A stretch of DNA of 64,000 bases from Minwuia sp. (GTDB lineage Bacteria; Pseudomonadota; Alphaproteobacteria; Minwuiales; Minwuiaceae). The translations under genes were made by a program, and so were the position numbers. A model generated the notes under the pieces. The model ran no database searches, had not been told where the DNA came from, and saw only the letters and a program-made list of their open reading frames with translations. Location of the stretch: assembly GCA_029210175.1 (NCBI GenBank), contig JARGPL010000032.1:62001-126000 (forward strand), given 5' to 3'. Of the stretch, positions 1,520 through 36,965 are shown piece after piece; position 1 is the stretch's first letter, and each line of letters begins with the position of its first letter.

Positions 1520-2722
1520 ATGTTGCTCAATGCTGTCATCGTCCTGACCGTGGTTGGCGCGGCGCTGCTGCTCTGGTCGCCGCGAATCCGCCGTTCCGTG
1601 ACCTGGCGGGCCATGACCACGCCGCTCGCCTCCATCATCGGCAGCGGATTTCTGGTTCTGGGACCGGTGCTGGATTCGCAGTATGGCAAGTACGCGCCGC
1701 TGATCATGGCAGTACTCTGTGTGGGCGCATACTTCTACGGGGCCGCCATCCGCTACAACATGGTGACGATCGATGGGGGTGATGCCCGTGACCATCCGAT
1801 GGTGCATCGTCTCGATGTCATGTCGTCATGGTCGCTTGGCTTCGCCTACATCGTTTCCGTGGCCTATTACCTGAACCTGTTCGGCGCATTCGGCGTCAGC
1901 CTGACCCCGGTGCATGACCCGCTGAACGCCCGGCTTCTGACCTCGGCCATGTTTGCCGTCATTCTGTTCGTGGGCTGGACCCGTGGGTTCAAGTCACTGG
2001 AAAGCATGGAGTACGTGTCCGTCGCCACGAAGCTGGCCATCATCGCCGGTTTGCTGGTCGGGCTGGCAGCATACTTCGGTGAGCGTGCGGTTGCCGGAAC
2101 GCTGGTCTTCAATGCACCGGTGCTGACGGGCTGGTCGGCGATCACCCTGGCATTTGGCCTGATCGTGACCGTGCAGGGCTTCGAGACTTCCCGCTATCTG
2201 GGACAGAACTATGACCGGCGCACGCTGCTGCGGTCGATGAAATGGTCGCAGTGGATCTCCACGGGCATCTACATGAGCTATGTCCTGCTGCTCGCCTATG
2301 TCTTCGATCGTGGAGACCTGCGACTGAGCGAGACGGCGATCGTCGACATGATGGTGGTTGTTGCCCCCATCCTGCCGGTGCTGCTGGTCGCCGCAGCACT
2401 TGCGGCCCAGTTCAGCGCTGCCGTCGCGGATACCAGCGGTTCCGGTGGCCTTGTCGCGGAATTGTCGGCCAACCGGCTGAGCCCGCGTGTCGCCTATGCC
2501 ATTCTGGGGTGCGTCGGGTTGCTGCTGACCTGGGCGGCGAACATCTTCGAGATCATCAGCTATGCGTCCCGCGCCTTTGCGGTCTACTACACGCTGCAGG
2601 CCCTGATCGCGGCGCTTACGGCATGGCGCAAGAACGCCATATGGCATTGCATCGGCTTCGCGATCCTGGCCTTCCTCGGTGTGCTGATCGTGGTCTTCGG
2701 CCAGCCTGTCGAAGCCGGATAG
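1520..2722 (+). CDS. Polytopic membrane protein, APC-superfamily-like permease
   Basis: The 400-residue product has about eleven or twelve hydrophobic segments. Segment two carries TPLASIIGSGFLVLGPVL, which resembles the unwound first helix (GxGxF/L) of amino acid-polyamine-organocation transporters, and later segments include FGLIVTVQGFETSRYLGQ, a place where such carriers have conserved Gly/Phe/Glu residues. This supports a LeuT-fold permease of the inner membrane. I do not recognise the specific subfamily and the substrate is unknown. It is convergent with recJ, only 22 bases away, with no clear terminator between them. Confidence 0.65.
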   Translation: MLLNAVIVLTVVGAALLLWSPRIRRSVTWRAMTTPLASIIGSGFLVLGPVLDSQYGKYAPLIMAVLCVGAYFYGAAIRYNMVTIDGGDARDHPMVHRLDVMSSWSLGFAYIVSVAYYLNLFGAFGVSLTPVHDPLNARLLTSAMFAVILFVGWTRGFKSLESMEYVSVATKLAIIAGLLVGLAAYFGERAVAGTLVFNAPVLTGWSAITLAFGLIVTVQGFETSRYLGQNYDRRTLLRSMKWSQWISTGIYMSYVLLLAYVFDRGDLRLSETAIVDMMVVVAPILPVLLVAAALAAQFSAAVADTSGSGGLVAELSANRLSPRVAYAILGCVGLLLTWAANIFEIISYASRAFAVYYTLQALIAALTAWRKNAIWHCIGFAILAFLGVLIVVFGQPVEAG

Positions 2723-2744
2723 AGCGTTTGTCCGTCCAGTGCTC

Positions 2745-4538
2745 TCAATCCACTGTCGCCGCGTCGTCGATGATGAACTGCGCCCGCGCCGCGCCTTGCC
2801 AGTGATCGACGCGCAGGTGTCCGGCGAGGTGCATGGTGCCGCCCTTGCGCCCGTGGCCGAGCAGCGCTGCGCCGAGCGGCCCATCAGTGCAGCGAAACGC
2901 GATGCCTGTTGCGCGACCGCCGGTGCGGCCTGACAGGATCACCCGGACATGGTTCTCGCCGACGATGTCCGCCTTGACCAGCTTTGCATCGGTCACCGCG
3001 ACGCGTGGCTCACGGTTACCGGCACCAAACGGGCCTGCGCGTTGCAGGGTCTCCGCCAGTTCGATGTTCAGGCCCTGGACACTGACCGCGCCGTCGATCA
3101 TCAGCGCCCTCTCGGCCTGCGCCCTGGCCACCTGTCCGGCCAGCCGTTCCTCAAGCAGGTCGCCAAGGGCATCCAGCTTGTCGGCGGCGATGGTGATCCC
3201 GGCCGCCATGCTGTGTCCGCCGCCGTTGATCAGCAGGCCTGACTGGCGCGCCGCAGTGATGGCCGCGCCGAGATCGACACCGGTGATGGACCGGCCCGAC
3301 CCCTTGCCCTGATCGCCTTCCAGCGCAACGACCAGGCTGGGCCGCCCGGTGCGATCCTTCAGCCGGCTGGCGACAATACCGATGACACCGGGGTGCCAGC
3401 CTTCCGCCGCGACGATGGTGACCGCGCGGTTGTCCTGCGTGTCGATCATCGCCAGGGCTTCTTCCAGCACGTTGGCTTCGATGCGCTTGCGTTCGTCATT
3501 CAGGCGATCCAGTTCCATGGCGATGCCCACGGCCTCTTCGCGGTCGTCGGTGGTCAGCAGGCGCGCACCCAGATCCGCCTTTCCCACCCGTCCACCGGCA
3601 TTGATCCGCGGTCCAAGCAGAAAGCCCGCATGATAGGTGCCGGGCGGGCCGTTGACCCGCGCCACATCGGAAAGCGTGGTCAGGCCCAGGCTTTGCCGCT
3701 TGCCCATGACCTTCAGCCCCTGCGCCACCAGCGCCCGGTTCAGGCCCACCAGCGGAACCACGTCGCAGACCGTGCCCAGGGCCACGATGTCCAGCAGGCC
3801 CATCAGGTCCGGCGTCCTGCGATCCGTGAACCAGCCAGCGCGCTTCAGTTCCCGGTTCACGGCGACGGCGAGCAGGAACGCGACACCGACGGCGGCCAGA
3901 TAGCCATGGTCGCTGTCGCAGTCGGTGCGGTTTGGATTGACGACCGCAGCAGCGCGGGGCAGGCGGCTCTCCGCCAGATGATGGTCGATGACGGCGACCT
4001 CGATGCCTTCATCAGCCGCCATTTCCAGAACATCGAAGGCCGAGATGCCGCAATCGACCGTCAGGATCAGGGCCGCGCCACCGGCGTGCAGCTTGCGCAA
4101 GGCCGCGATGTTGGGGCCATACCCCTCCACCATGCGGTCGGGGATGTAGTAGCTGGCGATACCACCCGCTGCCTGCAGGTATCGGACAAGCAAGGCCGCC
4201 GACGTCGCCCCGTCCACATCGTAATCGCCGAAGACGGCGATGGGGTGCTGTTGCTGAACGCACGTGGCGATCAGGGCGGCGGTCTTGTCCATGTCGGCGA
4301 ACCGCGATGGATCGGGCAGCAGATCCTTCAGGCGCGGTTCAAGATACCCGGGGGCTTCGTCAGCGGTGATCCCACGACTGACCAGCAGGCTGGCGACAAT
4401 TTCGGGCAGGCCGAGTTGTTGCGCCATCGCACGGGCCAGCCGTTCATTGGCCGGTGTGACAGAAGACTGCCAACGACGCCCGCTGACCGAACGGCCGATT
4501 CCGAGGAATGTCTGTTCGGATGTGGCGTCTGCCGACAA
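2745..4538 (-). CDS. recJ: Single-stranded-DNA-specific exonuclease RecJ
   Basis: RecJ is the 5'-3' single-strand exonuclease of RecFOR recombination and mismatch repair. The 597-residue protein has the DHH-family metal motifs in order: DYDVDG at about residue 105, VDCG near 161, DHH at 185-187, and a C-terminal DHHA1 region with NGGGHSMAAG. Length matches the family. The start taken is a TTG; the residues right after it (FLGIGRSVSGRRW) look like genuine RecJ N-terminus, and no in-frame ATG precedes them after the glpX stop. It is the last gene of a minus-strand operon, 5 bases after glpX. Confidence 0.95.
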   Translation of the reverse strand: MSADATSEQTFLGIGRSVSGRRWQSSVTPANERLARAMAQQLGLPEIVASLLVSRGITADEAPGYLEPRLKDLLPDPSRFADMDKTAALIATCVQQQHPIAVFGDYDVDGATSAALLVRYLQAAGGIASYYIPDRMVEGYGPNIAALRKLHAGGAALILTVDCGISAFDVLEMAADEGIEVAVIDHHLAESRLPRAAAVVNPNRTDCDSDHGYLAAVGVAFLLAVAVNRELKRAGWFTDRRTPDLMGLLDIVALGTVCDVVPLVGLNRALVAQGLKVMGKRQSLGLTTLSDVARVNGPPGTYHAGFLLGPRINAGGRVGKADLGARLLTTDDREEAVGIAMELDRLNDERKRIEANVLEEALAMIDTQDNRAVTIVAAEGWHPGVIGIVASRLKDRTGRPSLVVALEGDQGKGSGRSITGVDLGAAITAARQSGLLINGGGHSMAAGITIAADKLDALGDLLEERLAGQVARAQAERALMIDGAVSVQGLNIELAETLQRAGPFGAGNREPRVAVTDAKLVKADIVGENHVRVILSGRTGGRATGIAFRCTDGPLGAALLGHGRKGGTMHLAGHLRVDHWQGAARAQFIIDDAATVD

Positions 4539-4543
4539 GTGCT

Positions 4544-5506
4544 CTAACCGGCGATCCGGGTCCGGCCTTCGATCCGGCGGATGGTGCCGGTGCGGGACCG
4601 CATGACGATGGAATCGGTGATGATCTGGCCACTGGTACGCCGCACGCCACGCAACATGCCGCCCGTGGTCACGCCGGTTGCGGTGAAGATGACGTCGCCC
4701 GCTGCAAGCTCTTCCAGTTCGTACTTGCGGTTCAGATCGGTAATGCCGAGACGCTCGGCCCGACCGCGCTCATCGCTGTTGCGGAACACCAGACGTCCCT
4801 GCATCTGACCACCGACACAGCGCAGCGCGGCTGCGGCCAGCACGCCTTCGGGTGCGCCACCGGTGCCGATATAGAGGTCGACAGCGGTTTCCTGTTCGGC
4901 CGTCGCGATGACACCGGCAACGTCTCCGTCAGGGATCAACTGGATACGGGCACCAGCAGCACGGGATTCACGAATGATCTCCCCGTGGCGCGGGCGGTCC
5001 AGGATGCAGACAGTCAGATCGGAAATGGCGCAGCCCTTGGCTTCCGCCAGGCGACCGAGGTTCTCGGAAACCGCGAGGTCCAGATCGACAATACCTTCAG
5101 GCAGGCCGCCGCCAACCGCGATCTTGTCCATGTAGACATCAGGCGAATTCAGCAGCTTGCCCTTCTCCGACAGTGCCATGACAGCGAGGGACCCGGGAGC
5201 GGCCTTGGCGGTGATCGTCGTGCCTTCCAGCGGGTCGAGCGCAATGTCGATCTCCGGGCCGGTGCCGAGGCCGACTTCCTCTCCGATGAAAAGCATCGGT
5301 GCTTCATCGCGTTCACCTTCGCCGATGACCACGGTACCCCGGATGGACAGCCCGTTCAGCGCGGTGCGAATGGCGTCAACAGCGGCCAGGTCGGCAGCCT
5401 TTTCGTTGCCCATTCCGATCCAGTTGTAGGCGGCGATGGCGCCGGCCTCTGTCACGCGGACCGCTTCCAGTGTCAGATTGCGGTCGAGTTTCCCCGTGTC
5501 AGGCAT
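4544..5506 (-). CDS. glpX: Class II fructose-1,6-bisphosphatase
   Basis: GlpX hydrolyses fructose 1,6-bisphosphate to fructose 6-phosphate in gluconeogenesis and the Calvin or pentose pathways, using divalent metal. The 320-residue protein shows the family metal and phosphate motifs GEGERDEAPM (62-71) and DPLEGTT (91-97), followed by the YMDK and ILDRPRH segments typical of GlpX. It lies between hom and recJ on the minus strand, 53 bases after hom and 5 bases before recJ, an arrangement familiar from Rhodospirillales. The ATG start gives the usual family length. Confidence 0.95.
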   Translation of the reverse strand: MPDTGKLDRNLTLEAVRVTEAGAIAAYNWIGMGNEKAADLAAVDAIRTALNGLSIRGTVVIGEGERDEAPMLFIGEEVGLGTGPEIDIALDPLEGTTITAKAAPGSLAVMALSEKGKLLNSPDVYMDKIAVGGGLPEGIVDLDLAVSENLGRLAEAKGCAISDLTVCILDRPRHGEIIRESRAAGARIQLIPDGDVAGVIATAEQETAVDLYIGTGGAPEGVLAAAALRCVGGQMQGRLVFRNSDERGRAERLGITDLNRKYELEELAAGDVIFTATGVTTGGMLRGVRRTSGQIITDSIVMRSRTGTIRRIEGRTRIAG

Positions 5507-5559
5507 TTGCGTTCTTCCCTTCAGGCAGTTTGTGGTGCCGTTGTTCTGTTGTCGGACGC

Positions 5560-6852
5560 TTACAGGTCCTTGATGCGGATCATATGCGGATTCTGCAAGA
5601 TGCAGTCCATACCTTCGATTTGTTTCAGTGCGGCGAGCACGCGGGATTCCGGTGCATCATGACAGATCACAACGATGGGTGCGGTCCCGCCTTCCGGTTT
5701 GCCACGCTGCAGCAATGACTCGATGGAGATCGCATGGTCGCGCAGCACAGCCGCCAGATCTGCGATGACACCCGGGCGATCCTCCACCTTCAGACTGATG
5801 TAGAAACGTCCGTGTGGCTCATCACTGCCGCCATCCTGGCGGGCGCGCAAGGCACTGGCCGGAATGCCGAAGACCGGGCTGAAGCGACCTGTCGCCACAT
5901 CGATCAGGTCACTTGCAACGGCAGAGGCTGTCGCGCCGCCGCCCGCGCCCGGGCCTTCGAGAACCGTGCGGCCAACGAAGTCCCCTTCGACCACCACGGC
6001 GTTGTTCACGCCTTCGACCTTGGAAATCGGGTCGTCCAGCGACACCAGGAACGGATGCACACGCTCCGTCACCGTGTCGCCGATGCGTTCCGCCACGCCG
6101 AGCAGTTTCAGCCTGAAGCCGAACTCATCCGCATAGGCGATGTCGATGGGGGAGATGGTGCTGATTCCCTCCACCGTCACACGGGAAAAATCGACCTGCT
6201 GGCCGAAGGCGATGGCTGAAAGCAGCGCCAGCTTGTGCGCGGCGTCGATGCCTTCGACGTCGAACGTGGGGTCCGCCTCCGCATAGCCCAGCGCCTGCGC
6301 CTCTGCCAGAACGTCGGCAAAATCGCGTCCCGTGCTGCGCATTTCGGAAAGGATGAAGTTGCAGGTGCCGTTCAGGATGCCATAGACGCGCTGGATGTCA
6401 TTGCCTGCCAGGCCTTCCTTCAGCGCCTTGATGATGGGGATGCCACCGGCAACGGCGGCCTCATACCCCAGCGCAACGCCGTGTTCTTCTGCCAGCACGC
6501 CCAGTTCGTTGCCATGTTCGGCCAGCAACGCCTTGTTGGCGGTGACGACCGGGCGGCCATTCTTCAGCGCATTGGTCACCAGATCCCGTGCCGGACCTTC
6601 CGACCCGCCCATCAGTTCGACGACAACATCCACATTCCCGGCGGTCGCAAGATCGCGGGCGTCGTCGAACCAGGTCATGCCGGAAAGGTCGATGCCACGA
6701 TCCCGCGACCGGTCACGCGCCGACACCGCTGTCACAACCAGTCGCTGCCCGGCGCGGGCGGTGATCGTCGTTTCGTGGCGCGCGAGCAACTCTATGAGTG
6801 ACGCCCCGACGGTGCCAAGGCCCGCCACACCGATCCGCACTGTCCCGGTCAC
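5560..6852 (-). CDS. hom: Homoserine dehydrogenase
   Basis: The enzyme reduces aspartate 4-semialdehyde to homoserine with NAD(P)H, the branch leading to threonine and methionine. The NAD-binding motif GVAGLGTVG is at the N-terminus, the catalytic domain follows, and the last about 80 residues form an ACT domain (ISLKVEDRPGVIADLAAVL) that usually senses threonine. I chose the GTG at 6852 (430 residues) because a GGGAG ribosome binding site lies 9 bases upstream of it; an ATG at 6894 in frame would add 14 residues with no similarity to the family. It follows the aminotransferase gene in the same operon. Confidence 0.94.
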   Translation of the reverse strand: MTGTVRIGVAGLGTVGASLIELLARHETTITARAGQRLVVTAVSARDRSRDRGIDLSGMTWFDDARDLATAGNVDVVVELMGGSEGPARDLVTNALKNGRPVVTANKALLAEHGNELGVLAEEHGVALGYEAAVAGGIPIIKALKEGLAGNDIQRVYGILNGTCNFILSEMRSTGRDFADVLAEAQALGYAEADPTFDVEGIDAAHKLALLSAIAFGQQVDFSRVTVEGISTISPIDIAYADEFGFRLKLLGVAERIGDTVTERVHPFLVSLDDPISKVEGVNNAVVVEGDFVGRTVLEGPGAGGGATASAVASDLIDVATGRFSPVFGIPASALRARQDGGSDEPHGRFYISLKVEDRPGVIADLAAVLRDHAISIESLLQRGKPEGGTAPIVVICHDAPESRVLAALKQIEGMDCILQNPHMIRIKDL

Positions 6853-6964
6853 GATGATGTTCTCCCGCCAGAAATTCCCAATGCGCGATCGCATCACGAC
6901 CGTGGATGATCACGCACCGGCCCGGCGCTGCTGCCGTCGGCAACAAGCCAGACCGTCTGGCTGT

Positions 6965-8179
6965 CTATTCGGCTTCGTCGAGGGGGCCGTCAACCATCTT
7001 TTCGTCGCGACCGAGGAAGCGGCGCAGATTCCGGGCCGCCTGGCGGATGCGCTGTTCGTTCTCGACCAGGCCGATCCGGACGTGGTCATCGCCGTATTCG
7101 CCGAACCCGATGCCGGGCGCGACAGCAATATCTGCCTCCTGCAGCAACAGCTTGGAGAACTCGACGCTGCCCAGATGCTTGAACTGATCGGGGATCGGTG
7201 CCCAGGCGAACATGGTTGCCGCAGGGGAGGGGATGTCCCACCCGGCCTGGGCGAATGTGCTGATCAGGACATCGCGGCGGGACTGATAGACCGCCCGGAT
7301 CTCATCGACACAGTCCTGTGGGCCGTTCAGTGCTGCTGCTGCAGCGACCTGGATCGGCGTGAACGCACCATAGTCGAGGTAGGACTTGATGCGCGTCAGG
7401 GCAGCGATCAGTTCCTGATTTCCCGTGGCGAAACCAATGCGCCAGCCGGGCATCGAGTATGTCTTGCTCAACGATGTGAACTCGACCGCCCGTTCCCGTG
7501 CGCCCGGCACCTGCAGGATCGACGGCGGCGGATTGCCGTCGAAGTAGATTTCCGAATAGGCCAGATCGGACAGGATGTAGAGGCCGCGTTTGCGGGCGAA
7601 ATCGACCACTTCCCGATAGAAATCCAGATCGACGACCATGGCGGTGGGGTTCGACGGAAAGTTCAGGACCAGCAGGGTCGGGGCCGGGATGCAGTGCTTC
7701 ATGGCCCGTTCGAGACTGGTCATGAAGTCATGTCCGGGGCCGACCGGGAAATGCCGGATCACTGCACCTGCGATGATGAAGCCATAGGGGTGGATCGGGT
7801 ATGACGGGTTGGGGGACAGGATGACATCGCCCGGCGTCGTGATCGCCATGGCCAGATGGGCCAGACCTTCCTTGGATCCCAGGGTGACGATGGTCTCCGT
7901 CTCCGGATCCACGGATACGCCGAAGCGCCGCTCATAATAGGCGGACACTGCCCGCCGCAGGCCGGGAATGCCCTTGGACGCGGAATAGCGGTGGGTCTTG
8001 GGATTTCGCGCCGTCTCCACCAGCTTCTCGACGATGTGTTCCGGCGTCGGCTGGTCAGGGTTGCCCATGCCGAAGTCGATGATGTCGCGACCCTCTGCCC
8101 GTGCCTCCGCCTTCAGGCGATTGACCTCATTGAAGACATAGGGGGGCAGACGCTTGATCAGATGAAAATCAACCTGCAT
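6965..8179 (-). CDS. Class I/II PLP-dependent aminotransferase (AlaC / LL-DAP aminotransferase type)
   Basis: This 404-residue enzyme belongs to fold-type I aminotransferases. The PLP lysine is Lys239 in SLSKTYSMPGWRIGF; Asn177 in NFPSNPT, Asp205 and Tyr208 in SDLAYSE are the other cofactor-binding positions. The N-terminus (IDFGMGNPDQPTPEHIV) is characteristic of the AlaC alanine/glutamate aminotransferases often annotated as LL-diaminopimelate aminotransferase. It precedes hom in the same orientation, which fits a role in amino acid synthesis of the aspartate or alanine family. Exact substrate cannot be settled from sequence. A GGAGG lies about 14 bases upstream of the ATG. Confidence 0.88.
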   Translation of the reverse strand: MQVDFHLIKRLPPYVFNEVNRLKAEARAEGRDIIDFGMGNPDQPTPEHIVEKLVETARNPKTHRYSASKGIPGLRRAVSAYYERRFGVSVDPETETIVTLGSKEGLAHLAMAITTPGDVILSPNPSYPIHPYGFIIAGAVIRHFPVGPGHDFMTSLERAMKHCIPAPTLLVLNFPSNPTAMVVDLDFYREVVDFARKRGLYILSDLAYSEIYFDGNPPPSILQVPGARERAVEFTSLSKTYSMPGWRIGFATGNQELIAALTRIKSYLDYGAFTPIQVAAAAALNGPQDCVDEIRAVYQSRRDVLISTFAQAGWDIPSPAATMFAWAPIPDQFKHLGSVEFSKLLLQEADIAVAPGIGFGEYGDDHVRIGLVENEQRIRQAARNLRRFLGRDEKMVDGPLDEAE

Positions 8180-8272
8180 GGCAAAATGTAACCTCCGCCG
8201 TCTTCAGTGACAGCCGAATGGGCCGGAAAAAGGGGCAAGCTCCGGCGGAAATGGGGCAGGACGGATCGTGGG

Positions 8273-9790
8273 CTATTCGAGGAAGATCTCGGCGCGCCGG
8301 TTGCCGGTCTCACCGCTCGGCATCGCCTCATTGAACCTGGGCTGATTGTCGCCCACCGCTTCGACGATGATCCGCTCATACGGTACACCGAAGGCGGCAA
8401 TGCGGTCGGCCACGGCATTGGCGCGATCTGCAGAAATCCGCAGGTTGGCCAGCAGATGCTGGGACACCGGCTGTTCGCCGGTGCGGCTGGAAGCGTGGCC
8501 GACGACCCGGACGCTGGCGTTGCTGTTGCGCGCAGCTGTCGCGATCTGCCGGATCACCGCATCGTCCCGGGCGCTGAGGCGTGCTGAATTGTGACCGAAG
8601 GGAATGACCGCAGCAGCGCCGCTGCCTGTGTTCAGGTTACCACCGGTCGAAGCTGTGCGGGTTGCTGATGGTTGGTAGACACCCTCACCGGAGATGATCA
8701 CCGGGCCGCTGTCTGCGCTGCTGCCATACCCGCCGCCGTTGACCACAACAGTCGAGCCAGCGCTGCGCGGGGCAGCGCCGATCGCCTGCTGATACGTCTG
8801 CGGGGCGTTCAGCGACTGCAGGTAGGTCTGCTGGATCACGGGTGACACGCTGTTGGGGAACTGGCCAGGGGCCACGGCGCCTGCGCCGGAACCTTCGCCA
8901 CCGGCGGCCAGAGGTTCGATCCCTGCGGCCCGCAACTGGTCACGATATGTGCGGTCGAGCGTTGTTTCCGGTGCTGCCGCAGGCGCGGTAATGCGCGCAG
9001 GCGCTGTCGGCGATGCCAGGGCGGTCGTGCTGGTGGTGCCCGGGCGGACGTCGGTGCGGGTCGCAACGGCGGTCGGCGCCGGGTCCACTGTCGGCGTGAC
9101 AGGGTCGCGCAGGCTGATGTTGGATGACGGCTGTACGCTGGTCCGCCGCGCCACAACCGATCCGTCGCTGTTGAAAGACGGTGGCTGCTGGCCGCGCGTC
9201 ATGGCGGCGATCATCGGCGTGGGGGAATTCGCCACGACGTCGCTTGCCGGGGCGCTGGTGCCCGACGTCCGGGGGGTAGGTGCCGGGGCAACCGCAACGC
9301 GGGTCTGCTGCGTGACGGTCGGAGTGGCAACACGTGGCTCTGCCGGTTGAGCGGCCTCGACACGGGGTGCCTGAACCAGCGGGGCCTGAATCTGCGGGGC
9401 CTGGACCTGCGGGGCGCGCACACGAGGTGTCTCGACGACCGGAGCCTCGACGCGTGTGACCTGAATTTCCGGGCGTGCAGCTGCGGCGCGGCGCACATCC
9501 TCTGCCTCGGCAGCGCTGTCGCGGGTCACGGCGGCGACCTCACGGGCTGCGCTGTGGCGCACGTTCTTGGTGTCGGCGGCAAGCCCGGTGTCCGGCGCAG
9601 GCGGAATGGCCGGTGCGGCACCAGCCCGGGTCACAGGCTGCGGCACGGGGCCGTAATCACTGGAGAACGGATCAGCCCAGTCGGGCACGGAACAACCGCC
9701 AAACAGGACAGGTGCCATCAGCAATGCTGCGATCCTGATCCGTCGGCCCGTCAGGCCGCGCCCGGTGCGCATCGAGGATTTGTCCATCAT
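8273..9790 (-). CDS. OmpA-family outer membrane lipoprotein with Pro/Ala-rich linker
   Basis: The product (505 residues from the ATG at 9790, which has a GGAG six bases upstream; an in-frame GTG lies 15 bases further upstream) begins with a signal peptide ending in LFGGC, a lipobox-like sequence with Cys33 as the lipidated residue. A long low-complexity linker follows, including a run of short near-repeats of the type VQAPQIQAPLVQAPRV. The last about 120 residues are an OmpA peptidoglycan-binding domain (IPFGHNSARLSARDDAVI, RISADRANAVADRIAAFGV, GETGNRRAEIFLE). It probably tethers the outer membrane to peptidoglycan. The specific family is not recognised. It is divergent from phaC. Confidence 0.85.
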   Translation of the reverse strand: MMDKSSMRTGRGLTGRRIRIAALLMAPVLFGGCSVPDWADPFSSDYGPVPQPVTRAGAAPAIPPAPDTGLAADTKNVRHSAAREVAAVTRDSAAEAEDVRRAAAARPEIQVTRVEAPVVETPRVRAPQVQAPQIQAPLVQAPRVEAAQPAEPRVATPTVTQQTRVAVAPAPTPRTSGTSAPASDVVANSPTPMIAAMTRGQQPPSFNSDGSVVARRTSVQPSSNISLRDPVTPTVDPAPTAVATRTDVRPGTTSTTALASPTAPARITAPAAAPETTLDRTYRDQLRAAGIEPLAAGGEGSGAGAVAPGQFPNSVSPVIQQTYLQSLNAPQTYQQAIGAAPRSAGSTVVVNGGGYGSSADSGPVIISGEGVYQPSATRTASTGGNLNTGSGAAAVIPFGHNSARLSARDDAVIRQIATAARNSNASVRVVGHASSRTGEQPVSQHLLANLRISADRANAVADRIAAFGVPYERIIVEAVGDNQPRFNEAMPSGETGNRRAEIFLE

Positions 9791-9910
9791 GTTCGGCTCC
9801 GACACTTGATTGCCCTGGGGACCAGATAGAGGTGATTCGCTAATTTAGCCGCAGATGCAAGCCTTGTCTGCCGTGATTGCGCAACACGCCGAGAGTGATT
9901 CATTGGAAAA

Positions 9911-9945
9911 ATGCTGCGATGCGGCATTTTATTGCAGTGCACAAT
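9911..9945. promoter_or_regulatory. TGC-rich palindromic element upstream of phaC (possible PhaR operator)
   Basis: In the divergent gap between the OmpA lipoprotein and phaC there is a cluster of TGC/GCA half sites: ATGC and GCAT flank 9911-9927, and TTGCAGTGCACAA follows at 9932-9944. PhaR, the PHA-responsive repressor of alphaproteobacteria, is known to bind TGC-rich sequences near phasin and synthase genes. The match is by eye only and no phaR gene is in the window. Confidence 0.4.
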
Positions 9946-10060
9946 AGGCCCTCGACGGAGACCTGACGTTGCGTTAAGTGTAGGCTCAGATTTGCTGATC
10001 TTCGGACGGAGCTGCGTGAAGTGGCCGTGACGCCGAGCATGCCAGGAGGAGGAAAAGACG

Positions 10061-11866
10061 ATGGCAGACAAGAATCCGGAAGACATGCCGGTGCCTGATC
10101 CGGTGGAATTTTCCCAGAACATGGCGAAGGTCGCGGAACAGAGTCAGCGCCTGGTTACCGAGTTTCTGGAGAAACAGAAGGGCGCTGCACCCGGCCCGGT
10201 CGATCCGCTGAACGTCGGCGAGGCGTTCATGGAAATGACCCGCAGCATGATGGCCAACCCGGAAAAGATGGTTCAGGCGCAGATGGACCTCTGGCAGAGC
10301 TATGTCCAGCTCTGGCAGAGCACGGCGCAGCGCATGCTTGGTCACACGAATGACGCCGCCCCGCCGCCGGACGCCGCCAAGAAGCGCGACAAGCGGTTCA
10401 AGGATGAGGAGTGGGACGAGAACGAGATTTTCAGCTTCATCAAGGAATCGTACCTGCTGACGTCCTCATGGATGACGGAGACCGTGGGCAAGGTCGAGGG
10501 CATGGATGACAAGACGTCCAAGAAGGTCGATTTCTACACCCGGCAGTTCGTCGATGCCCTGTCCCCGTCGAACTTCCTGATGACCAACCCGGTGGTGCTG
10601 AAGGAAACACTGGCGACCAGCGGGCAGAATCTGGTCAACGGACTTGAAAACGTTCTGAAGGATCTGGAGCGTGGCAAGGGCAAGCTGAACATCTCCATGA
10701 CCGACATGGATGCCTTCGAGGTCGGGCGCAATGTCGCCACGACGCCGGGCAAGGTGGTCATGCAGACAGATCTGATGCAGCTGATCCAGTACGAGCCGGT
10801 GACCAAGCAGGTGCACCAGCGCCCGCTGCTGATCAGCCCGCCATGGATCAACAAGTTCTACATCCTCGACCTGCAGCCGAAGAATTCATTCATCAAGTGG
10901 TGCACGGAACAGGGGCTGACGGTTTTCGTCATGTCCTGGGTCAACCCCGACGAGAAGCTGTCCGACAAGACCTTCGAGGATTACATGAACGAAGGCATCC
11001 TGGCCGCCCTCGACGGGATCGAGCAGGCAACAGGGGAGCGCGAGGTCACCGCCATCGGTTATTGCCTGGGCGGCACGCTGATGGCGACGACACTCGCCTA
11101 CATGGGTGCCATCGGCGATGACCGGATCAAGGCCTGTACCTTCTTCACCGCCCAGGTCGAGTTCTCGGAACCCGGTGAACTGGGCGTGTTCATCGATGAC
11201 GAGCAGATCACGCACCTGGAACAGGTAATGGAGGAAAAGGGCTATCTGGACGGAGCGGAGATGGCCAGCAGCTTCAACATGCTGCGGGCCAACGACCTGA
11301 TCTGGTCCTTTGTCGTGAACAACTACCTGATGGGCAAGGATCCGTTCCCGTTCGATCTGCTGTTCTGGAACTCCGACGCGACCCGCATGCCGCCGAAGAT
11401 GCACAGTTTCTATCTGCGCGAGATGTATCAGAACAACAAGCTGGTGCAGCCGGGCGCGATCCAGATGAATGGTGTCGGCATCGACCTGTCGAACGTCAAC
11501 ATCCCGGTCTACATGCAGGCGGGCAAGGACGACCACATCGCCCCCTACAAGTCTGTATTCAAGGCAACCAGGTATTTCAGCGGCAATACCCGCTTCATGC
11601 TGGCTGGTTCCGGCCACATCGCAGGGGTCGTGAACCCGCCGGAGCCGCAGAAGTACCAGTACTGGACCAACGACAAGCGCAAGAAGTACGACAATCCCGA
11701 TGACTGGCTTGCCGATGCCACGGAAACGCCGGGCAGCTGGTGGCCCGACTGGATCAAGTGGATGCGGAAGCATTCGGGCAAGAAGGTCGCTGCGCGCGTT
11801 CCGGGTGACGGAAAGCTGGAGGTGCTGGAAGACGCGCCCGGCAGCTACGTCAAGGTGCGTTCCTGA
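10061..11866 (+). CDS. phaC: Class I poly(R)-hydroxyalkanoic acid synthase
   Basis: PhaC polymerises (R)-3-hydroxyacyl-CoA into polyhydroxyalkanoate granules in the cytoplasm. The 601-residue length fits class I enzymes. The lipase-like box GYCLGG places the catalytic cysteine at Cys335; the general base pair is Asp491 (in GKDDHIAP) and His519 (in GSGHIAGVVNPP). The N-terminal domain of about 200 residues is typical of the class. A strong AGGAGGAGG ribosome binding site lies 8 bases before the ATG. No phaA, phaB or phasin gene is adjacent, but a 3-hydroxybutyrate dehydrogenase gene occurs elsewhere in the window. Confidence 0.96.
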   Translation: MADKNPEDMPVPDPVEFSQNMAKVAEQSQRLVTEFLEKQKGAAPGPVDPLNVGEAFMEMTRSMMANPEKMVQAQMDLWQSYVQLWQSTAQRMLGHTNDAAPPPDAAKKRDKRFKDEEWDENEIFSFIKESYLLTSSWMTETVGKVEGMDDKTSKKVDFYTRQFVDALSPSNFLMTNPVVLKETLATSGQNLVNGLENVLKDLERGKGKLNISMTDMDAFEVGRNVATTPGKVVMQTDLMQLIQYEPVTKQVHQRPLLISPPWINKFYILDLQPKNSFIKWCTEQGLTVFVMSWVNPDEKLSDKTFEDYMNEGILAALDGIEQATGEREVTAIGYCLGGTLMATTLAYMGAIGDDRIKACTFFTAQVEFSEPGELGVFIDDEQITHLEQVMEEKGYLDGAEMASSFNMLRANDLIWSFVVNNYLMGKDPFPFDLLFWNSDATRMPPKMHSFYLREMYQNNKLVQPGAIQMNGVGIDLSNVNIPVYMQAGKDDHIAPYKSVFKATRYFSGNTRFMLAGSGHIAGVVNPPEPQKYQYWTNDKRKKYDNPDDWLADATETPGSWWPDWIKWMRKHSGKKVAARVPGDGKLEVLEDAPGSYVKVRS

Positions 11867-31036: not shown

Positions 31037-31717
31037 CTACCAGGGCATTTCCTTGCCGTCGTAGTCGTAGAAATGACCGGAGCTGGCATCGGTCACGCCT
31101 TCTGTCACGGCGATCAGGCCCGCCGCGCTCTCCGCCGGTGTCACAGGTGCCTGCGCGCCGCCCATGTCGGTCGAGACCCAGCCCGGATGCGTCGAGATCA
31201 CCCGGATACCGCGGGATTTCCATTCGATGGCGAGGCAGTTCATCACCTGATTGAGGGCGGCCTTCGATGAGCGGTAGATGAAGCGGTCGCTGGACGTGGT
31301 CAGCTTGATCGACCCCATCTGGCTCGACAGCATGACGATGGTCCGGTGGTCGCTGGCCGCGACATTGTCGACAAGCGCTTCCGACACCCGATAGGGGGCA
31401 AAGACGTTGACTTCCATCGCCTGGCGCCAGCCGTCGATGTCCATGTCGCCGACCGCCTGGCGATCCGGGCCGATGATGCCGGCGTTGTTGATCAGGGCAT
31501 CAATGGGGCGGTCGCCGAGGGCCGCTTTCAGGCGCTTGATCGCCTCCAGATCGGTGACCTCCAGCGGATGGGCCTCGGCCCCCTTGGCGACCAGATCGTC
31601 CAGGTCGCTGACGGTGCGGGCGCAGGCAATGACATTCGCGCCCTTTTCAAGGTATTGCAGCACCATCTGGCGACCGATGCCGCGACCGGCACCGGTGATC
31701 AGAACTGTCTTGGTCAT
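31037..31717 (-). CDS. SDR family oxidoreductase
   Basis: The 226-residue protein has the cofactor motif TGAGRGIGRQ, NNAGI, and the active-site pair in YRSSK. Asp/Arg pattern after the second strand (IACARTVSDL) suggests NADP. It is a classical short-chain dehydrogenase with unknown substrate, possibly a carbonyl reductase of the C-factor type. The true start is ATG 31717, overlapping the stop of the upstream transporter gene (ATGA); the open frame further upstream lies inside that gene. It is convergent with the serine protease. Confidence 0.9.
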   Translation of the reverse strand: MTKTVLITGAGRGIGRQMVLQYLEKGANVIACARTVSDLDDLVAKGAEAHPLEVTDLEAIKRLKAALGDRPIDALINNAGIIGPDRQAVGDMDIDGWRQAMEVNVFAPYRVSEALVDNVAASDHRTIVMLSSQMGSIKLTTSSDRFIYRSSKAALNQVMNCLAIEWKSRGIRVISTHPGWVSTDMGGAQAPVTPAESAAGLIAVTEGVTDASSGHFYDYDGKEMPW

Positions 31718-32682
31718 GTGACGTTTCCCTTGTTTCTGCGATCCGCGCGCGCCACCAGGCGGCGATAGACCGGGGTGAGCAGGACGGGCAAGGTGTACAT
31801 CGGTGCCTGCCCGACTGCAAAATACATGATGGTGTCGGGGTCTGCCTTGTCCGCCAGCGTGACCAGCACCAGACCCATGTTGCAGTTGCCGCTCATCAGC
31901 CCGACGGACAGGGCGATGCGGGGTCCCAGATGCCAGAACAGGGCCGCCCCGGCAATCTGAAGGGCGATGTTGAAGGCAAAGGCGTGCAGGGTCGTGGTCA
32001 GCACATGGACCGGCATGTCCAGCGCCATTTCGGTCACGCCATCGAACACGCCAACGACGAAGCAGGTCATGGCCAGCACCGCGGCGCCATCCAGGTGCGG
32101 GCGCATCGCCACGAGACTTACCGGGCCGATCAGGCGTCGCAGGATCCAGGCAAGGCCGAAGGCCACCGTGACCAGTGCCGCCAGCCGGAACATGAACGTG
32201 GTCAGCGAAATCTCCAGCGCCAGATCCAGCAGGTTCAGCGCCATCGGTGGCAGGATGAACGGGGTCAGCCACATGGCCGCAACGGTGGTGACAATGACCA
32301 CGGCACCATCGAGACCGAGGAAGATCGCGATGGCGGCAGCTGAAACGATGGGCGGCGCGGCGGCCATCAGCACCATGCCGGCCAGCACGCCCTCGGTCAG
32401 TCCGGCATCCTTCAGGATCAGCCAGGTCAGGACCGGTGAGACAACAATCATCCACAGGCAGAGCAGCGCCATCAGTTTCCAGCGCCGCGCATAGGCGCCC
32501 AGGTCGGCCCAGTCGATCCGCATCAGTGCGATGACCAGCGGCAGCACGATGAAGGCAGCCAGGTAAGGCCGAACCAGCGAACTCAGGGGCGGGATCGCGA
32601 AACCCAGCACCACGGCAAAGGCCAGAAACCGCGTGGCGTGGCGGCCCAGAAAGGCGAGAGGGGACAGCAGGGCGGCAATCAT
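31714..32682 (-). CDS. Bile acid:sodium symporter (BASS) family transporter
   Basis: The 322-residue protein has about ten membrane segments. The glycine/asparagine-containing motif LMSGNCNMGLVLVTLA near residue 270 and the helix-breaking AAAPPIVSAAAIA near 110 match the two crossover regions that bind sodium and substrate in BASS transporters. Members carry pantoate, pyruvate, bile acids or other organic anions; this substrate is not known. It is coupled to the downstream SDR gene, so the SDR may act on the transported compound. Confidence 0.78.
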   Translation of the reverse strand: MIAALLSPLAFLGRHATRFLAFAVVLGFAIPPLSSLVRPYLAAFIVLPLVIALMRIDWADLGAYARRWKLMALLCLWMIVVSPVLTWLILKDAGLTEGVLAGMVLMAAAPPIVSAAAIAIFLGLDGAVVIVTTVAAMWLTPFILPPMALNLLDLALEISLTTFMFRLAALVTVAFGLAWILRRLIGPVSLVAMRPHLDGAAVLAMTCFVVGVFDGVTEMALDMPVHVLTTTLHAFAFNIALQIAGAALFWHLGPRIALSVGLMSGNCNMGLVLVTLADKADPDTIMYFAVGQAPMYTLPVLLTPVYRRLVARADRRNKGNVT

Positions 32683-32809: not shown

Positions 32810-33814
32810 TTACCCCTTGTCGTCGGGCGTCTTGCGGAAGCGGGCGCAGGGGTCCTTGTCGTCCAGACGCGGCGTGAAGATGATGGCGTCGAATGCACCG
32901 GGTTCGAAGCCGACGATGTAATCGCGGGGGTCTTCCTCCCCCGCCACGACCTCGAACATGGCAATGGCGGCCATGCGCGCCCGAGGGGCCAGAGCCGCGA
33001 GGTATCGGGGCACGCCCCGGTCCTTGCGGACATGGCCACTGCCGGCGATCAGCACGGCCCCTGCACCGTCCGTGGATGCGGCCATGCCAAGCGCCAGCGC
33101 GGCGTCACGCAGCCGCTGTACCCTGGCTATTCCGGCCAGTGCCTTGTCCTTGCCGTCCAGCATGCCGCAGTGGCTGTCGACCAGTTCCTGTTTCAGGGCC
33201 TCACGATCGGCATCGGTCCAGCGGGCAGTCTCCATCAGATAGGTGACCGACGCGGGGACGGCCTTGCTGTCTCCGCCCGTGGCAGAGGCCATCAGGTTTC
33301 GGGCGGAGATATTGCCAGCGATCTGCGGCAGGCCCAGTTCCATCGCGACGTCCGCGATCGGCTGGTATTCCGACCAGGCTGGCCACCCGGTTTCATCCCA
33401 GTTCACCGCGTTGCCCATACCGGCTGCGGTAGCCCCCGGACGGGCCAGATAGGACTGCAGCGCATCCTGCTGTTCTGTCGTGATCATTTCCCAGACAACC
33501 GTCCTTGGCTGCATTGCCTCACCGCGCTTGCCTTCGGTCGCCCAGCGCAGCAGGCGTGCCTGCAACAGGTGATGGTCGGGGTTGTTGTGCTTTTCACCCA
33601 GCAGCACGTGGTCTGCCTTGGAGACCAGGAAACGCAGGTCGCGCTCCGTACCCAGGGCATCTCGGCTGTGGACCCATATGCGCCCGACGAGTGGATGATC
33701 GGCCTGCAGCGATGTTGTCCAGGTATCGGGGATCAGGCGATCTGCGGCCTGCGCCATCGCAGGGGACATGACTGCCAGCGTCGCAGCAATTGCGGTCATC
33801 AACAGGTGGCGCAT
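32810..33814 (-). CDS. ChaN-like haem-binding uptake protein (Cofac_haem_bdg_2)
   Basis: The 334-residue product starts with a signal peptide ending in MAQA|AD, so it is exported but is not an obvious lipoprotein. The family motifs are LLGEKHNNPDHHLLQARLL (about 70-90), the segment WDETGWPAWSEYQPIAD and the late LIAGSGHVRKDRGVPRYL. In Campylobacter, ChaN is an iron-regulated protein that holds two haem groups; the GExH pattern is shared with TraB/Tiki proteins. The ATG overlaps the TPR gene stop (TGATG). It is the last gene of an operon starting with a ferritin-like gene. Confidence 0.85.
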   Translation of the reverse strand: MRHLLMTAIAATLAVMSPAMAQAADRLIPDTWTTSLQADHPLVGRIWVHSRDALGTERDLRFLVSKADHVLLGEKHNNPDHHLLQARLLRWATEGKRGEAMQPRTVVWEMITTEQQDALQSYLARPGATAAGMGNAVNWDETGWPAWSEYQPIADVAMELGLPQIAGNISARNLMASATGGDSKAVPASVTYLMETARWTDADREALKQELVDSHCGMLDGKDKALAGIARVQRLRDAALALGMAASTDGAGAVLIAGSGHVRKDRGVPRYLAALAPRARMAAIAMFEVVAGEEDPRDYIVGFEPGAFDAIIFTPRLDDKDPCARFRKTPDDKG

Positions 33815-34365
33815 CAATTCATCGCTCCCCTCGTATTGCCCAACTGGCTCAGCATGTTCTTCACCTGTGCCAGATGCGGATTGATCCTCAACGCAGCTTC
33901 GAACGCAATCCGCGCTGACTGCGTGTCGTCGTGTTGCAGGCAGATCTGGCCAAACCCGGACAGGGCGCCGAAGTGGCGCGGCTCCCGCAGCAACGTCTGC
34001 TGAATATCCAGCAGGCTCTGTTCGTGGCGACCGGCGATATAGTGCAGTGTCGCACGCTTGTTCCAGGCTTCGGCCCAGTCGGGCTGTCGGGCGCACAGGT
34101 CATCCAGCAGGGAAATAGCGCTTTCGTGCTCACCTGATGCGATCGCCGTGATGGATTTCTGCATGATCGCGGCGGGCTCTGCATCGGTATGCTCACACCA
34201 TACCGCCCAGATCAGGTCCTCTATCTCGAAAGGCAGGTTGGCGCTGGCCGGATCGGCCAGATCGCGGAACAGGGCATTTAGCCGTTTCGGCTGTGAAGGG
34301 TGTGGTTTCCGATCAGCGGTGCCGACCACCACTTCCAGTGTTCGATGCAGGGCGGCAGCGATCAT
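33814..34365 (-). CDS. TPR repeat protein
   Basis: The 183-residue protein has no signal peptide. Its second half contains two to three tetratricopeptide repeats: AISLLDDLCARQPDWAEAWN, LLDIQQTLLREPRHFGALSG and SARIAFEAALRINPHLAQVK. The N-terminal third (LFRDLADPASANLPFEIEDL) is the widespread segment that precedes TPRs in alphaproteobacterial proteins of this kind. It should mediate protein contacts in the cytoplasm. It overlaps the MFS gene upstream by one base and the ChaN-like gene downstream by one base. Confidence 0.85.
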   Translation of the reverse strand: MIAAALHRTLEVVVGTADRKPHPSQPKRLNALFRDLADPASANLPFEIEDLIWAVWCEHTDAEPAAIMQKSITAIASGEHESAISLLDDLCARQPDWAEAWNKRATLHYIAGRHEQSLLDIQQTLLREPRHFGALSGFGQICLQHDDTQSARIAFEAALRINPHLAQVKNMLSQLGNTRGAMN

Positions 34366-35699
34366 CAGTTATCCTCCGCCTGGACTTCATCGAGTCCGAG
34401 CGCGACGAACCCGCCAACAAGTGACATGGCCGCGAACACGCCGATGGCTGTGGCCACACCCTGGGATTCTGCCAGCAGGCCGATGGCTGCGGTGGCGAGC
34501 AACAGCACGCCGATGAGCGTATTGGCGAGTGCCGTGTAAGCCGCCCTGTCATCCGCTGGTGCCATGTCCACCAGATGCGTTGACCGTCCCAGGCGAACGC
34601 CCTGATAGGCGAGGGTCAGGACGAACAGCAAGGGCGCCAGCAGGAAACTGCTGTTCTGATCCAGCAGCGCGAGATCGTGCAGCAGCACCGTCGCGATCAG
34701 GGTTGCAGCGCCAAGGAACCCGGCAAAGGCCAGCACCTTGCGGCTGGACCTGTCCGATAGTCGCCCCCAGACATAGCCGCCAAGAATGGAAGCGAGCGCG
34801 GCGGCGATGACGAAGAGGCCGAGGTCCGCCAGCCCGTTGCGACCATTTTCGCCGGCCAGAGCCAGCATGTAAGGCGGTGCCAGGGCTGTCGCGATCAGCA
34901 GTCCGCGTGCGGCAATGAAGCGACGCAACTGTGGCCGGTCGAACAACAGCCGGAACTGCTTCATGGCAACGCTGAAGGCATTGCCGCCGCCTTCGGTCGC
35001 GCCCCGGGCCTCCACCAATGTGGTGAAGCAGGCACCGGCAATGATCCAGGCACCGCCGGCAAGCAGCATGACGAAGGCAATTGTTGCGATCGTCTGGTCC
35101 AGAAGGTGCAGGCTCAAGGCCAGCCCGAACAGCAGCACGACGCAGGATGCAAGGCTGCCTGCTGTTCCGGTTGCCGTGCCGCGCGTGGATTTCGAGACAG
35201 TCTTGCCCAGAACATCCTTGTAGCTGACCGAACAGGCGCTGCGGGCGGTCGCCATGACAGCCAGCAGGCCGACGATCATCCAGCCCGCTGTCGCGCCTTC
35301 CAGCATCAGCGCGGTCAGCGCCATGCCGATGACGGCCAGCCCCTGAATGATGCTGCCCGTGGCCCAGACCCATTTCCTGACCGGCAGGGAACGGATGCCG
35401 CCTGCGATGAAAAGCTGCGGCAGCAGGGCACCGGCCTCGCGCACTGGCACGAGTACCCCGACGAGCCCGGCCGGCGCGCCCAGCGCTGTGATCAGCCAGG
35501 CCAGCACCAGCTTCGGGTCGACCAGCCCGTCCCCGACCTTGGTCAGGGACAGGCTGACGACATGCGTCATGAAGTTGCGCGGTTGCTCATCGCAGGCTGC
35601 ATCGGGGATATCGCGACACACGCGGCCCTCGTCATCCCCGGTGAGGATGCCGTAGGCGCGGCGAACCGGCGTCAGTTCATTGATGTCGGGGGTGTTCAA
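34365..35699 (-). CDS. MFS transporter with conserved cytoplasmic N-terminal segment
   Basis: The 444-residue protein has about twelve membrane helices and the MFS loop motif GRLSDRSSRKVLA between helices 8 and 9. It starts at a TTG that overlaps the stop of the ferritin-like gene (TTGA). The start is supported because the first 43 residues contain RVCRDIPDAACDEQPRNF, a segment I recall as conserved at the N-terminus of this MFS subfamily, with Cys28 and Cys36. Substrate unknown; the operon context with iron-related genes suggests a metal, haem or siderophore-like cargo, which is an inference. Confidence 0.85.
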   Translation of the reverse strand: MNTPDINELTPVRRAYGILTGDDEGRVCRDIPDAACDEQPRNFMTHVVSLSLTKVGDGLVDPKLVLAWLITALGAPAGLVGVLVPVREAGALLPQLFIAGGIRSLPVRKWVWATGSIIQGLAVIGMALTALMLEGATAGWMIVGLLAVMATARSACSVSYKDVLGKTVSKSTRGTATGTAGSLASCVVLLFGLALSLHLLDQTIATIAFVMLLAGGAWIIAGACFTTLVEARGATEGGGNAFSVAMKQFRLLFDRPQLRRFIAARGLLIATALAPPYMLALAGENGRNGLADLGLFVIAAALASILGGYVWGRLSDRSSRKVLAFAGFLGAATLIATVLLHDLALLDQNSSFLLAPLLFVLTLAYQGVRLGRSTHLVDMAPADDRAAYTALANTLIGVLLLATAAIGLLAESQGVATAIGVFAAMSLVGGFVALGLDEVQAEDN

Positions 35700-35983
35700 T
35701 GGTCAGCGACGTCGCCGTCCTTGAACAGGAACTTGCGCAACTGTCCATCGAAGTCACTGCTGTTGCGGCGCAACCATTCCAGAACCATCGCCGCGTGCTC
35801 GATCTCCTCGCGCATGTTGTGCAGCAGGATTTCCTTCAGATCGGCATCGTCACAATCGTCGGCACGCTGACGATACCAGTCGACGGCTTCAAGTTCCTCC
35901 ATCAGGGACGTTATGGCCTGATGCATGTGGATGGTTTCCTTGCTCAACCGCTCCCGCGGGGCATGCAGATTGTCACTTGCCAT
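35696..35983 (-). CDS. Encapsulated-ferritin-like (EncFtn) ferroxidase lacking a targeting tail
   Basis: The ATG at 35983, with AGGAGA upstream, gives a 95-residue protein. The first helix contains MEELEAVDWY (Glu29, Glu30, Glu32, Trp36, Tyr37) and the second REEIEHAAMVLEWLRR (Glu60, His63). These match Glu31, Glu32, Glu34, Trp38, Tyr39, Glu62 and His65 of the Rhodospirillum rubrum EncFtn, with identical spacing. EncFtn proteins oxidise Fe(II) as decamers and are normally packed into encapsulin shells by a C-terminal peptide. Here the protein ends at FLFKDGDVADH, before that peptide, and no encapsulin gene is in the window. It is the first gene of a coupled four-gene operon. Confidence 0.88.
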   Translation of the reverse strand: MASDNLHAPRERLSKETIHMHQAITSLMEELEAVDWYRQRADDCDDADLKEILLHNMREEIEHAAMVLEWLRRNSSDFDGQLRKFLFKDGDVADH

Positions 35984-36182
35984 GGTCTTCTCCTGTTGTT
36001 TGTTTCTGTCGCAAGGGTGCAACGCCGATGCGGCAGGATCGTTGCGCACTTTACGCCATCACCGGATGACCGGATCAGGCAGTGGCGTCGCACCTGCCAG
36101 ATGGTCCCGTCATGGCTCTTGCGGTTCGGGCCGGGGCACGCATCATGGTGTGATCACGGAAACCGGATCGGGAAAGAGCATC

Positions 36183-36965
36183 ATGTTGCAGGGAAAGGTG
36201 GCGCTGGTCACCGGGTCCACATCGGGCATCGGCCTCGGCTGCGCGGAAGCGCTGGCCGCTGCGGGTGCCAGGGTCATGCTGCACGGCAGTCGTGATGCTG
36301 CCTCGGCTGAGGCGTTGCGCACGGATCTGGCATCGCGGCACGGGGTGGATGTCGGCTATCGGCAGGCGGATGCAGCAGACGGGAAGGCCGTTCGCGATCT
36401 GGTCGCGGCGACCGAGGCGGCCTTCGGACGGCTGGATATTCTGGTCAACAATGCCGGTATCCAGCACGTGGCCCCGATCGAGGAGTTTCCGCTGGAGAAG
36501 TGGGATCAGATCATCGCCATCAACCTGTCCGCCGTGTTCCACGGCAGCCGCGCCGCCATTCCGGGCATGAAGGCCCGCGGCTGGGGACGGATCATCAACA
36601 TTGCGTCGGCGCACAGCCTGGTCGCGAGTCCGTTCAAGTCTGCCTACGTTTCTGCCAAGCATGGTGTCCTGGGCTTCACCAGAACGGCGGCGCTGGAAGT
36701 GGCGCAGCATGGCATCACGGTCAATGCGATCTGCCCCGGCTATGTGCTGACGCCGCTGGTGGAGAAGCAGATTCCCGATACGGCAAAGGCGCGCGGCATT
36801 ACCGAGGAACAGGTGAAGCGGGATGTGTTGCTGGCAGCGCAACCGACCAAGGAGTTCGCGACCGTCGAGCAGATCGGTGACCTGACGGTCTTCCTGTCAA
36901 CGAACAGCGGTGCCGCGATCACCGGCACGGCACTGCCGATGGACGGTGGCTGGACAGCGCAGTAA
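36183..36965 (+). CDS. bdhA: 3-hydroxybutyrate dehydrogenase
   Basis: This SDR interconverts (R)-3-hydroxybutyrate and acetoacetate with NAD, a step in reuse of stored PHB. From ATG 36183 the protein has 260 residues, with TGSTSGIGLG at the N-terminus, NNAGIQHVAPIEEFPLEKWD, and the catalytic YVSAKHG. The segments IQHVAPIEEFP and ICPGYVLTPLVEKQIPD are diagnostic of this subfamily rather than a generic SDR. It is divergent from the ferritin-like gene with a 199-base gap and not linked to phaC. Confidence 0.93.
   Translation: MLQGKVALVTGSTSGIGLGCAEALAAAGARVMLHGSRDAASAEALRTDLASRHGVDVGYRQADAADGKAVRDLVAATEAAFGRLDILVNNAGIQHVAPIEEFPLEKWDQIIAINLSAVFHGSRAAIPGMKARGWGRIINIASAHSLVASPFKSAYVSAKHGVLGFTRTAALEVAQHGITVNAICPGYVLTPLVEKQIPDTAKARGITEEQVKRDVLLAAQPTKEFATVEQIGDLTVFLSTNSGAAITGTALPMDGGWTAQ

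Follow-up and report, generated by a model that had tools for sequence, protein, structure and literature searches.

Why do the genes of a ferritin-like ferroxidase, an MFS transporter, a TPR protein and an exported ChaN-domain protein overlap one another without a break on one strand of a contig of the marine bacterium Minwuia, and do they form a single system for handling iron and haem, as the original prediction held? The question arises in a window of 64,000 nucleotides (the whole stretch of DNA analysed here), in which the following features concern us.

35696-35983, minus strand: EncFtn-like ferroxidase (s-FLP / Non-EncFtn), 95 aa (PF22277, 2.8e-39)
34365-35699, minus strand: MFS transporter of a subfamily without a name, 444 aa, TTG start (MFS_1, 1.3e-19)
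33814-34365, minus strand: TPR protein, 183 aa, predicted cytosolic (TPR_2, 1.3e-9, and other TPR models)
32810-33814, minus strand: ChaN-domain exported protein, 334 aa from the ATG at 33814 (PF04187, 1e-39)
35984-36182: intergenic region of 199 bases, common to the EncFtn gene and the divergent 3-hydroxybutyrate dehydrogenase gene
36183-36965, plus strand: 3-hydroxybutyrate dehydrogenase gene, divergent from the EncFtn gene
31714-32682, minus strand: downstream membrane protein, after a 127-bp gap; adjoining in four Minwuia species

The four overlapping minus-strand genes are as first described, with coordinates, junctions and all four Pfam-backed labels in agreement, and the alphaproteobacterial placement was correct, the relatives being Minwuia sp. 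and M. thermotolerans. The downstream membrane protein, for which no Pfam family was found at E<=0.01, is probably outside the module.

The four-gene run within and outside Minwuia

At the EncFtn/MFS junction, ATTGA, the stop codon TGA (35698-35696) overlaps the start codon TTG (35699-35697), and the MFS/TPR and TPR/ChaN junctions both read TGATG with one base in common, 34365 and 33814, respectively. As read from the ORFs, this TTG is the sole standard start codon to precede the conserved motif at the N-terminus of the MFS protein. For the ChaN protein, the ATG at 33814 is the likeliest start and gives a clean signal peptide (MRHLLMTAIAATLAVMSPAMAQA).

Three Minwuia relatives, with MFS identities of 80-82%, hold all four genes in the same order with overlapping or abutting junctions; because order and junctions are kept in these three relatives, the arrangement is not a matter of chance. 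A fourth relative (MFS 83%) shows EncFtn-MFS and then the contig end. Counting the present one, five Minwuia genomes have the ATTGA junction, and the four of them with TPR and ChaN on the contig also show overlap or abutment at the junctions of those genes. Two further species, G003 and G007 (MFS 64-65% identical), have the order EncFtn-MFS-(DUF3012)-ChaN; here a gene for a DUF3012 lipoprotein replaces TPR and fills the gap between MFS and ChaN, no TPR remnant was found in that gap, and the ChaN homologue carries the lipobox LLAAC. TPR is kept at 80-82% in the three relatives and is absent in these two. In seven Minwuia species EncFtn immediately precedes MFS on the same strand, and the full four-gene set with the ATTGA overlap is limited to one Minwuia clade. 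Outside the genus, no ChaN gene was found near EncFtn or MFS in 385 alphaproteobacterial genomes, and the EncFtn or MFS loci retrieved gave no TPR match. The proposal that the four genes act as one system therefore does not extend beyond Minwuia, the genus to which the ChaN and TPR linkages are confined and in two species of which TPR is swapped; the EncFtn-MFS core is what survives comparison with other genomes.

The haem part of the original prediction fared no better. The ChaN protein scores 137 bits with PF04187 (cut-off 27.7) and matches C. jejuni 2g5g at 2.3e-9, but a haem role has no support other than this domain and fold label; members of the fold differ greatly in function (PMC7979712) and include esterases and toxins. 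It might be imagined that the exported ChaN protein receives haem or iron, that the MFS protein imports it, and that EncFtn then takes up the released iron for storage or oxidation. ChaN and PhuW relatives are indeed tied to haem uptake (PMC7412671, PMC7979712), and hemB stands beside EncFtn in one gammaproteobacterial genome, G446. However, ChaN is linked to EncFtn-MFS only in Minwuia, the operon is without a haem transporter, no ORF longer than 504 aa is present as a candidate TonB-dependent receptor between 28 and 40 kb of the window, and the wider neighbours described below are oxidative-stress genes, not uptake genes; we consider such an import route improbable. As to regulation, two blocks in the 199-base intergenic region are conserved in Minwuia, and the Fur, Irr (ICE) or RirA (IRO) sites for which a search in this region had been advised were not recognisable, there being no convincing match upstream of EncFtn.

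A short EncFtn in a genome without encapsulin

The ferroxidase matches PF22277 with 133 bits against a curated cut-off of 27 and has relatives in PDB (5n5f, 5da5, 3k6c). With TIGR04535, the model for encapsulin-associated EncFtn, it scores 112 bits, below the cut-off of 125, because its tail is missing, the alignment reaching 2-89 of 114. When aligned with the Rhodospirillum rubrum (Rru) protein at an offset of two residues, E30, Y37, E60 and H63 fall on the Rru ferroxidase residues E32, Y39, E62 and H65. The entry-site residues E29 and E32 likewise fall on Rru E31 and E34, and W36 matches too. Judged by this alignment, the set of ferroxidase ligands is complete; the roles of E31, E32, E34 and E62 in the Rru protein have been described (PMC5012862).

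The C-terminus (...LFKDGDVADH) lacks a targeting peptide of the GSLxIGSL-like kind, and no encapsulin (PF04454) was found in this Minwuia genome, which is 99.99% complete and has one EncFtn. Six encapsulin-linked EncFtns read at full length (L072, L073, L142-L145) have 123-136 aa with an extension ending IGSL-like, for example GSLGIGSL or GSLRIGSL, versus 93-104 residues in s-FLPs, and the targeting tail is likewise missing from all other encapsulin-free s-FLPs examined. With its 95 aa and no targeting tail, the Minwuia EncFtn is, by sequence, a member of the s-FLP / Non-EncFtn group (PMC11202242, PMC5012862), the role of which these reviews leave open. The short form is commoner than the encapsulated form in the alphaproteobacteria sampled: a strong EncFtn match is present in 63 of the 385 genomes and encapsulin in 14, all 14 being among the 63, and 49 of the 63 are without encapsulin. 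Each of the two species with DUF3012, G003 and G007, has two EncFtns, the tailed one beside encapsulin and the tail-less one beside MFS, and within these genomes the MFS coupling is limited to the tail-less EncFtn.

The EncFtn-MFS pair and its neighbours in other lineages

The MFS protein is one of a coherent subfamily (27 alphaproteobacterial sequences, 33-83% identity) that extends to many Gammaproteobacteria and, beyond them, to a few MAGs from other phyla. No NCBIfam match was found for it, nor any match of the MFS profile to PDB sequences. Its cytosolic N-terminal tail carries the motif RVCRDIPDAAC (subfamily form CRDIPxSAC / R-x-C-x-D-I-x(4)-C), in which R26, C28, D30, I31 and C36 do not vary among 28 homologues. 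The AlphaFold model has a standard MFS fold (pLDDT 87, pTM 0.87). A substrate assignment from this structure was abandoned; the matches were generic, a tie among carriers of drugs, sugar-phosphates, lipids, monocarboxylates and nucleosides, and ferroportin appeared only at Foldseek rank 36. The Cys motif was also considered as a marker of EncFtn-bearing genomes and set aside as a weak one; EncFtn is present in 0 of 9 genomes with motif-less MFS versus 29 of 67 with motif-bearing MFS (hand count, p 0.01), the motif-less proteins cluster in a few clades, and many EncFtn-free genomes have the motif.

Outside Minwuia, a same-strand EncFtn gene immediately upstream of MFS was found in G036 and G400, both of one alphaproteobacterial family, and in two gammaproteobacterial genomes, the MAG G446 (L205, JAUIAI010000016.1) at 39 bp and G710 (L307) at 180 bp. 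In G446, hemB is located upstream of EncFtn. The tree of the MFS proteins, with placements that are partly well supported, has EncFtn-linked members in four separate places: the Minwuia clade, the G036/G400 clade, L205 and L307. Two divergent MFS genes near EncFtn were not counted as linked, with a LysR-type HTH gene intervening in G390 and another gene in G425. Assuming random gene order and ~3,500 genes per genome, ~0.004 same-strand adjacencies would be expected versus four seen in the 30 non-Minwuia genomes holding both genes, and adjacency in three or more lineages has P ~1e-8 by a simple binomial that ignores ascertainment. Co-occurrence agrees in direction, with EncFtn present in 17 of 26 MFS genomes among the 385 alphaproteobacteria (p 1.4e-6 without Minwuia, not corrected for phylogeny). 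Of at least 573 MFS loci in the genome collection, the scan retained the 80 best, so that infrequent linkages may have escaped it; neighbouring genes come from a simple ORF heuristic, with Pfam or NCBIfam checks limited to the cases stated, and several of the compared genomes are MAGs. Either EncFtn and MFS have been linked repeatedly, or an old linkage has often been broken. This recurrence at four or more separate points of the MFS tree is what makes very unlikely, in our estimate, an operon of convenience, that is, tight packing with no common role that was fixed by descent in the genus, in spite of what such an account would explain: the genus-limited TPR and ChaN, the replaceable TPR, and the ordinary neighbours in other lineages.

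At the same time, EncFtn and MFS each have a life apart from the other. All but a handful of the ~100 MFS homologues examined outside Minwuia are apart from EncFtn, their neighbours often being housekeeping genes, and EncFtn is absent from 38 of 50 genomes with an MFS homologue; the MFS protein thus has a function without EncFtn. Most s-FLPs likewise are not adjacent to MFS.

The two alphaproteobacterial genomes with the pair offer a wider context. In G400, EF-G2-Dps-ZIP-EncFtn-MFS-MsrP, where ZIP is a transporter of divalent metals, lie on one strand with gaps of ~50-135 bp, and in G036 the series is EF-G2, HpcD-like, Dps, ZIP, EncFtn, MFS and MsrP with looser spacing, including 1.6 kb from ZIP to EncFtn. 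In seven further genomes of the same order, which we label 'Kiloniellales-like' and of which Pelagibius marinus appears to be a member, EncFtn is followed by MsrP at 117-261 bp without MFS, and in G347 MsrP is upstream of EncFtn. Most EncFtn-MsrP genomes also have a LysR regulator and a thioredoxin-reductase-like gene close by, and four genomes have MFS-MsrP but no EncFtn with it. MsrP, a repair enzyme for oxidised methionine in the periplasm, was identified with NF003767 at ~420 bits against a cut-off of 207 (L091, L238, L089). Across alphaproteobacteria generally, no conserved s-FLP neighbours were found beyond the MFS/MsrP/Dps/ZIP neighbourhoods reported here, and our literature search found no description of EncFtn with an MFS partner or with MsrP. 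Such neighbours speak for a connection with iron and oxidative stress and not with haem uptake. Together with the ferroxidase residues and the distant recurrence of EncFtn-MFS, the Dps/ZIP/MsrP run in two genomes upholds the iron part of the original prediction, and an assignment of EncFtn-MFS to iron and oxidative stress is moderately supported.

The same observations can be read with less emphasis on iron. The MFS protein might be a general stress or metabolite transporter (for a drug, a peptide or an organic acid) with which EncFtn shares its regulation by oxidative stress but no iron substrate. Its wide distribution without EncFtn, often alone, its place beside MsrP without EncFtn in f135 and f107 genomes and beside a glutathione-reductase-like gene in L080 (by sequence reading), and the mixture of drug, sugar-phosphate and lipid carriers among the fold matches would all fit such a role, but the ATTGA coupling in Minwuia and the repeated adjacency with EncFtn in separated lineages would not be expected from it. 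We regard this reading as a serious though lesser possibility.

A proposed iron-detoxification module and known systems

EncFtns are reported to hold no mineral core on their own (PMC7762939). A capsule-less EncFtn would thus need some other sink for oxidised iron, and a co-translated carrier would be a natural one; from this we arrive at a model of a ferroxidase coupled to MFS export. We propose, with a confidence that is about evenly balanced, that the EncFtn-MFS core is a two-part iron-detoxification module lowering free Fe2+ in oxidative stress, a split analogue of MbfA. EncFtn, by homology to other EncFtns, would oxidise or sequester excess cytosolic Fe2+, and the co-translated MFS protein might transport iron, chelated iron or some related compound through the inner membrane, with export the likeliest direction, perhaps keeping labile iron and Fenton damage low during oxidative stress. 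The Minwuia operon would then have gained the TPR protein (or the DUF3012 lipoprotein) and the exported ChaN-domain protein, the latter probably a periplasmic or outer-membrane accessory. Physical contact, docking to the MFS N-terminal tail, and regulation are further elements that we infer. A partner taking the oxidised iron would be the missing piece for EncFtns without encapsulin, and the EncFtn-MFS pair, together with the EncFtn-MsrP/Dps/ZIP neighbourhood, offers a concrete set of partners for s-FLPs as well as a possible role for a widely distributed MFS subfamily annotated just as 'MFS transporter'.

The closest likeness to the s-FLP half is Nitrosomonas europaea NE0167 (PDB 3k6c), also of 95 aa, with the EncFtn fold, the ferroxidase residues and no targeting peptide; unlike it, the Minwuia EncFtn has a transporter partner in a co-translated operon. 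The R. rubrum EncFtn-encapsulin store (Rru_A0973/0974) has a homologous ferroxidase, whereas Minwuia has no encapsulin gene and its EncFtn no cargo-loading peptide. ChaN and PhuW, which bind haem in uptake, share the PF04187 domain and export with the Minwuia ChaN protein, which in contrast has no receptor partner nearby and for which haem binding is putative. Among iron exporters, MbfA (ferritin-like plus VIT) and IceT (MFS) are known, IceT being the sole MFS for which PMC7762939 gives a reported iron-exporting activity. The Salmonella iron-citrate exporter IceT would resemble the Minwuia protein as an MFS carrier proposed to move iron; it has no ferritin-like partner, however, and the likeness would be one of function. 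MbfA of Bradyrhizobium and Agrobacterium would be an analogue in its way of working, with a non-cage ferritin-like ferroxidase, a membrane carrier, an alphaproteobacterial host and a link to oxidative stress. The Minwuia pair differs from it in being two polypeptides, with another ferritin-like family, with MFS in place of VIT and with transport that is predicted, and is not a member: the MbfA model NF045676 gives only E 0.18, and ferritin-like and VIT1 domains do not occur in one chain. A more specific version of our proposal, in which s-FLP and MFS protein together make up an exporter, the s-FLP serving as its ferroxidase half and passing iron to the CRDIPxSAC tail for export by the MFS protein, is in our view unlikely. 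If it were true, s-FLPs would gain a function, and an unrelated, split counterpart would be added to MbfA.

Variable and flanking genes of the Minwuia operon

In two Minwuia species the position of the TPR gene is taken by a gene for a small DUF3012 (PF11216) lipoprotein, which lies between the MFS transporter and ChaN genes:

L070, 7938-8123: DUF3012 lipoprotein gene
L071, 9319-9504: DUF3012 lipoprotein gene

Downstream of the operon lies a further gene, whose position 3' of the operon is kept in four Minwuia genomes, and a Pfam search of its product returned no match at E<=0.01:

window, 31714-32682: membrane protein

Other neighbours of EncFtn and MFS

In G390, a LysR-type HTH gene (L246 5626-5997; HTH_1, 123 aa), ModE-like as judged from its sequence, adjoins MFS and is divergent from EncFtn. 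A second ferritin-like gene (DUF2202/Ferritin; L114 5674-6111) stands immediately 3' of the short EncFtn-like gene (s-FLP) in G123. In the gammaproteobacterial MAG G446, hemB (ALAD, 7.3e-137; L260 5999-7111) directly precedes EncFtn-MFS. MFS is directly preceded by a gene read from sequence as aconitase-like in five Kangiella genomes (L157, L164, L165, L171, L176), with a second MFS gene following the pair at L157; this placement is perhaps a hint of iron/citrate.

EncFtn, MsrP and an iron/oxidative-stress gene run

Two genomes of one alphaproteobacterial family carry the run EF-G2-Dps-ZIP-EncFtn-MFS-MsrP:

L253 (G400), 2521-9041: entire run, all on one strand
L091 (G036), 1570-10274: entire run, all on one strand

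MsrP is also found directly downstream of EncFtn (s-FLP) in seven genomes (L251, L254-L259) that belong to the same taxonomic order as G036. Most of them also have, close to the pair, a gene for a LysR regulator and one that is thioredoxin-reductase-like. The run in G400 and G036 is a compact island for iron/oxidative stress.
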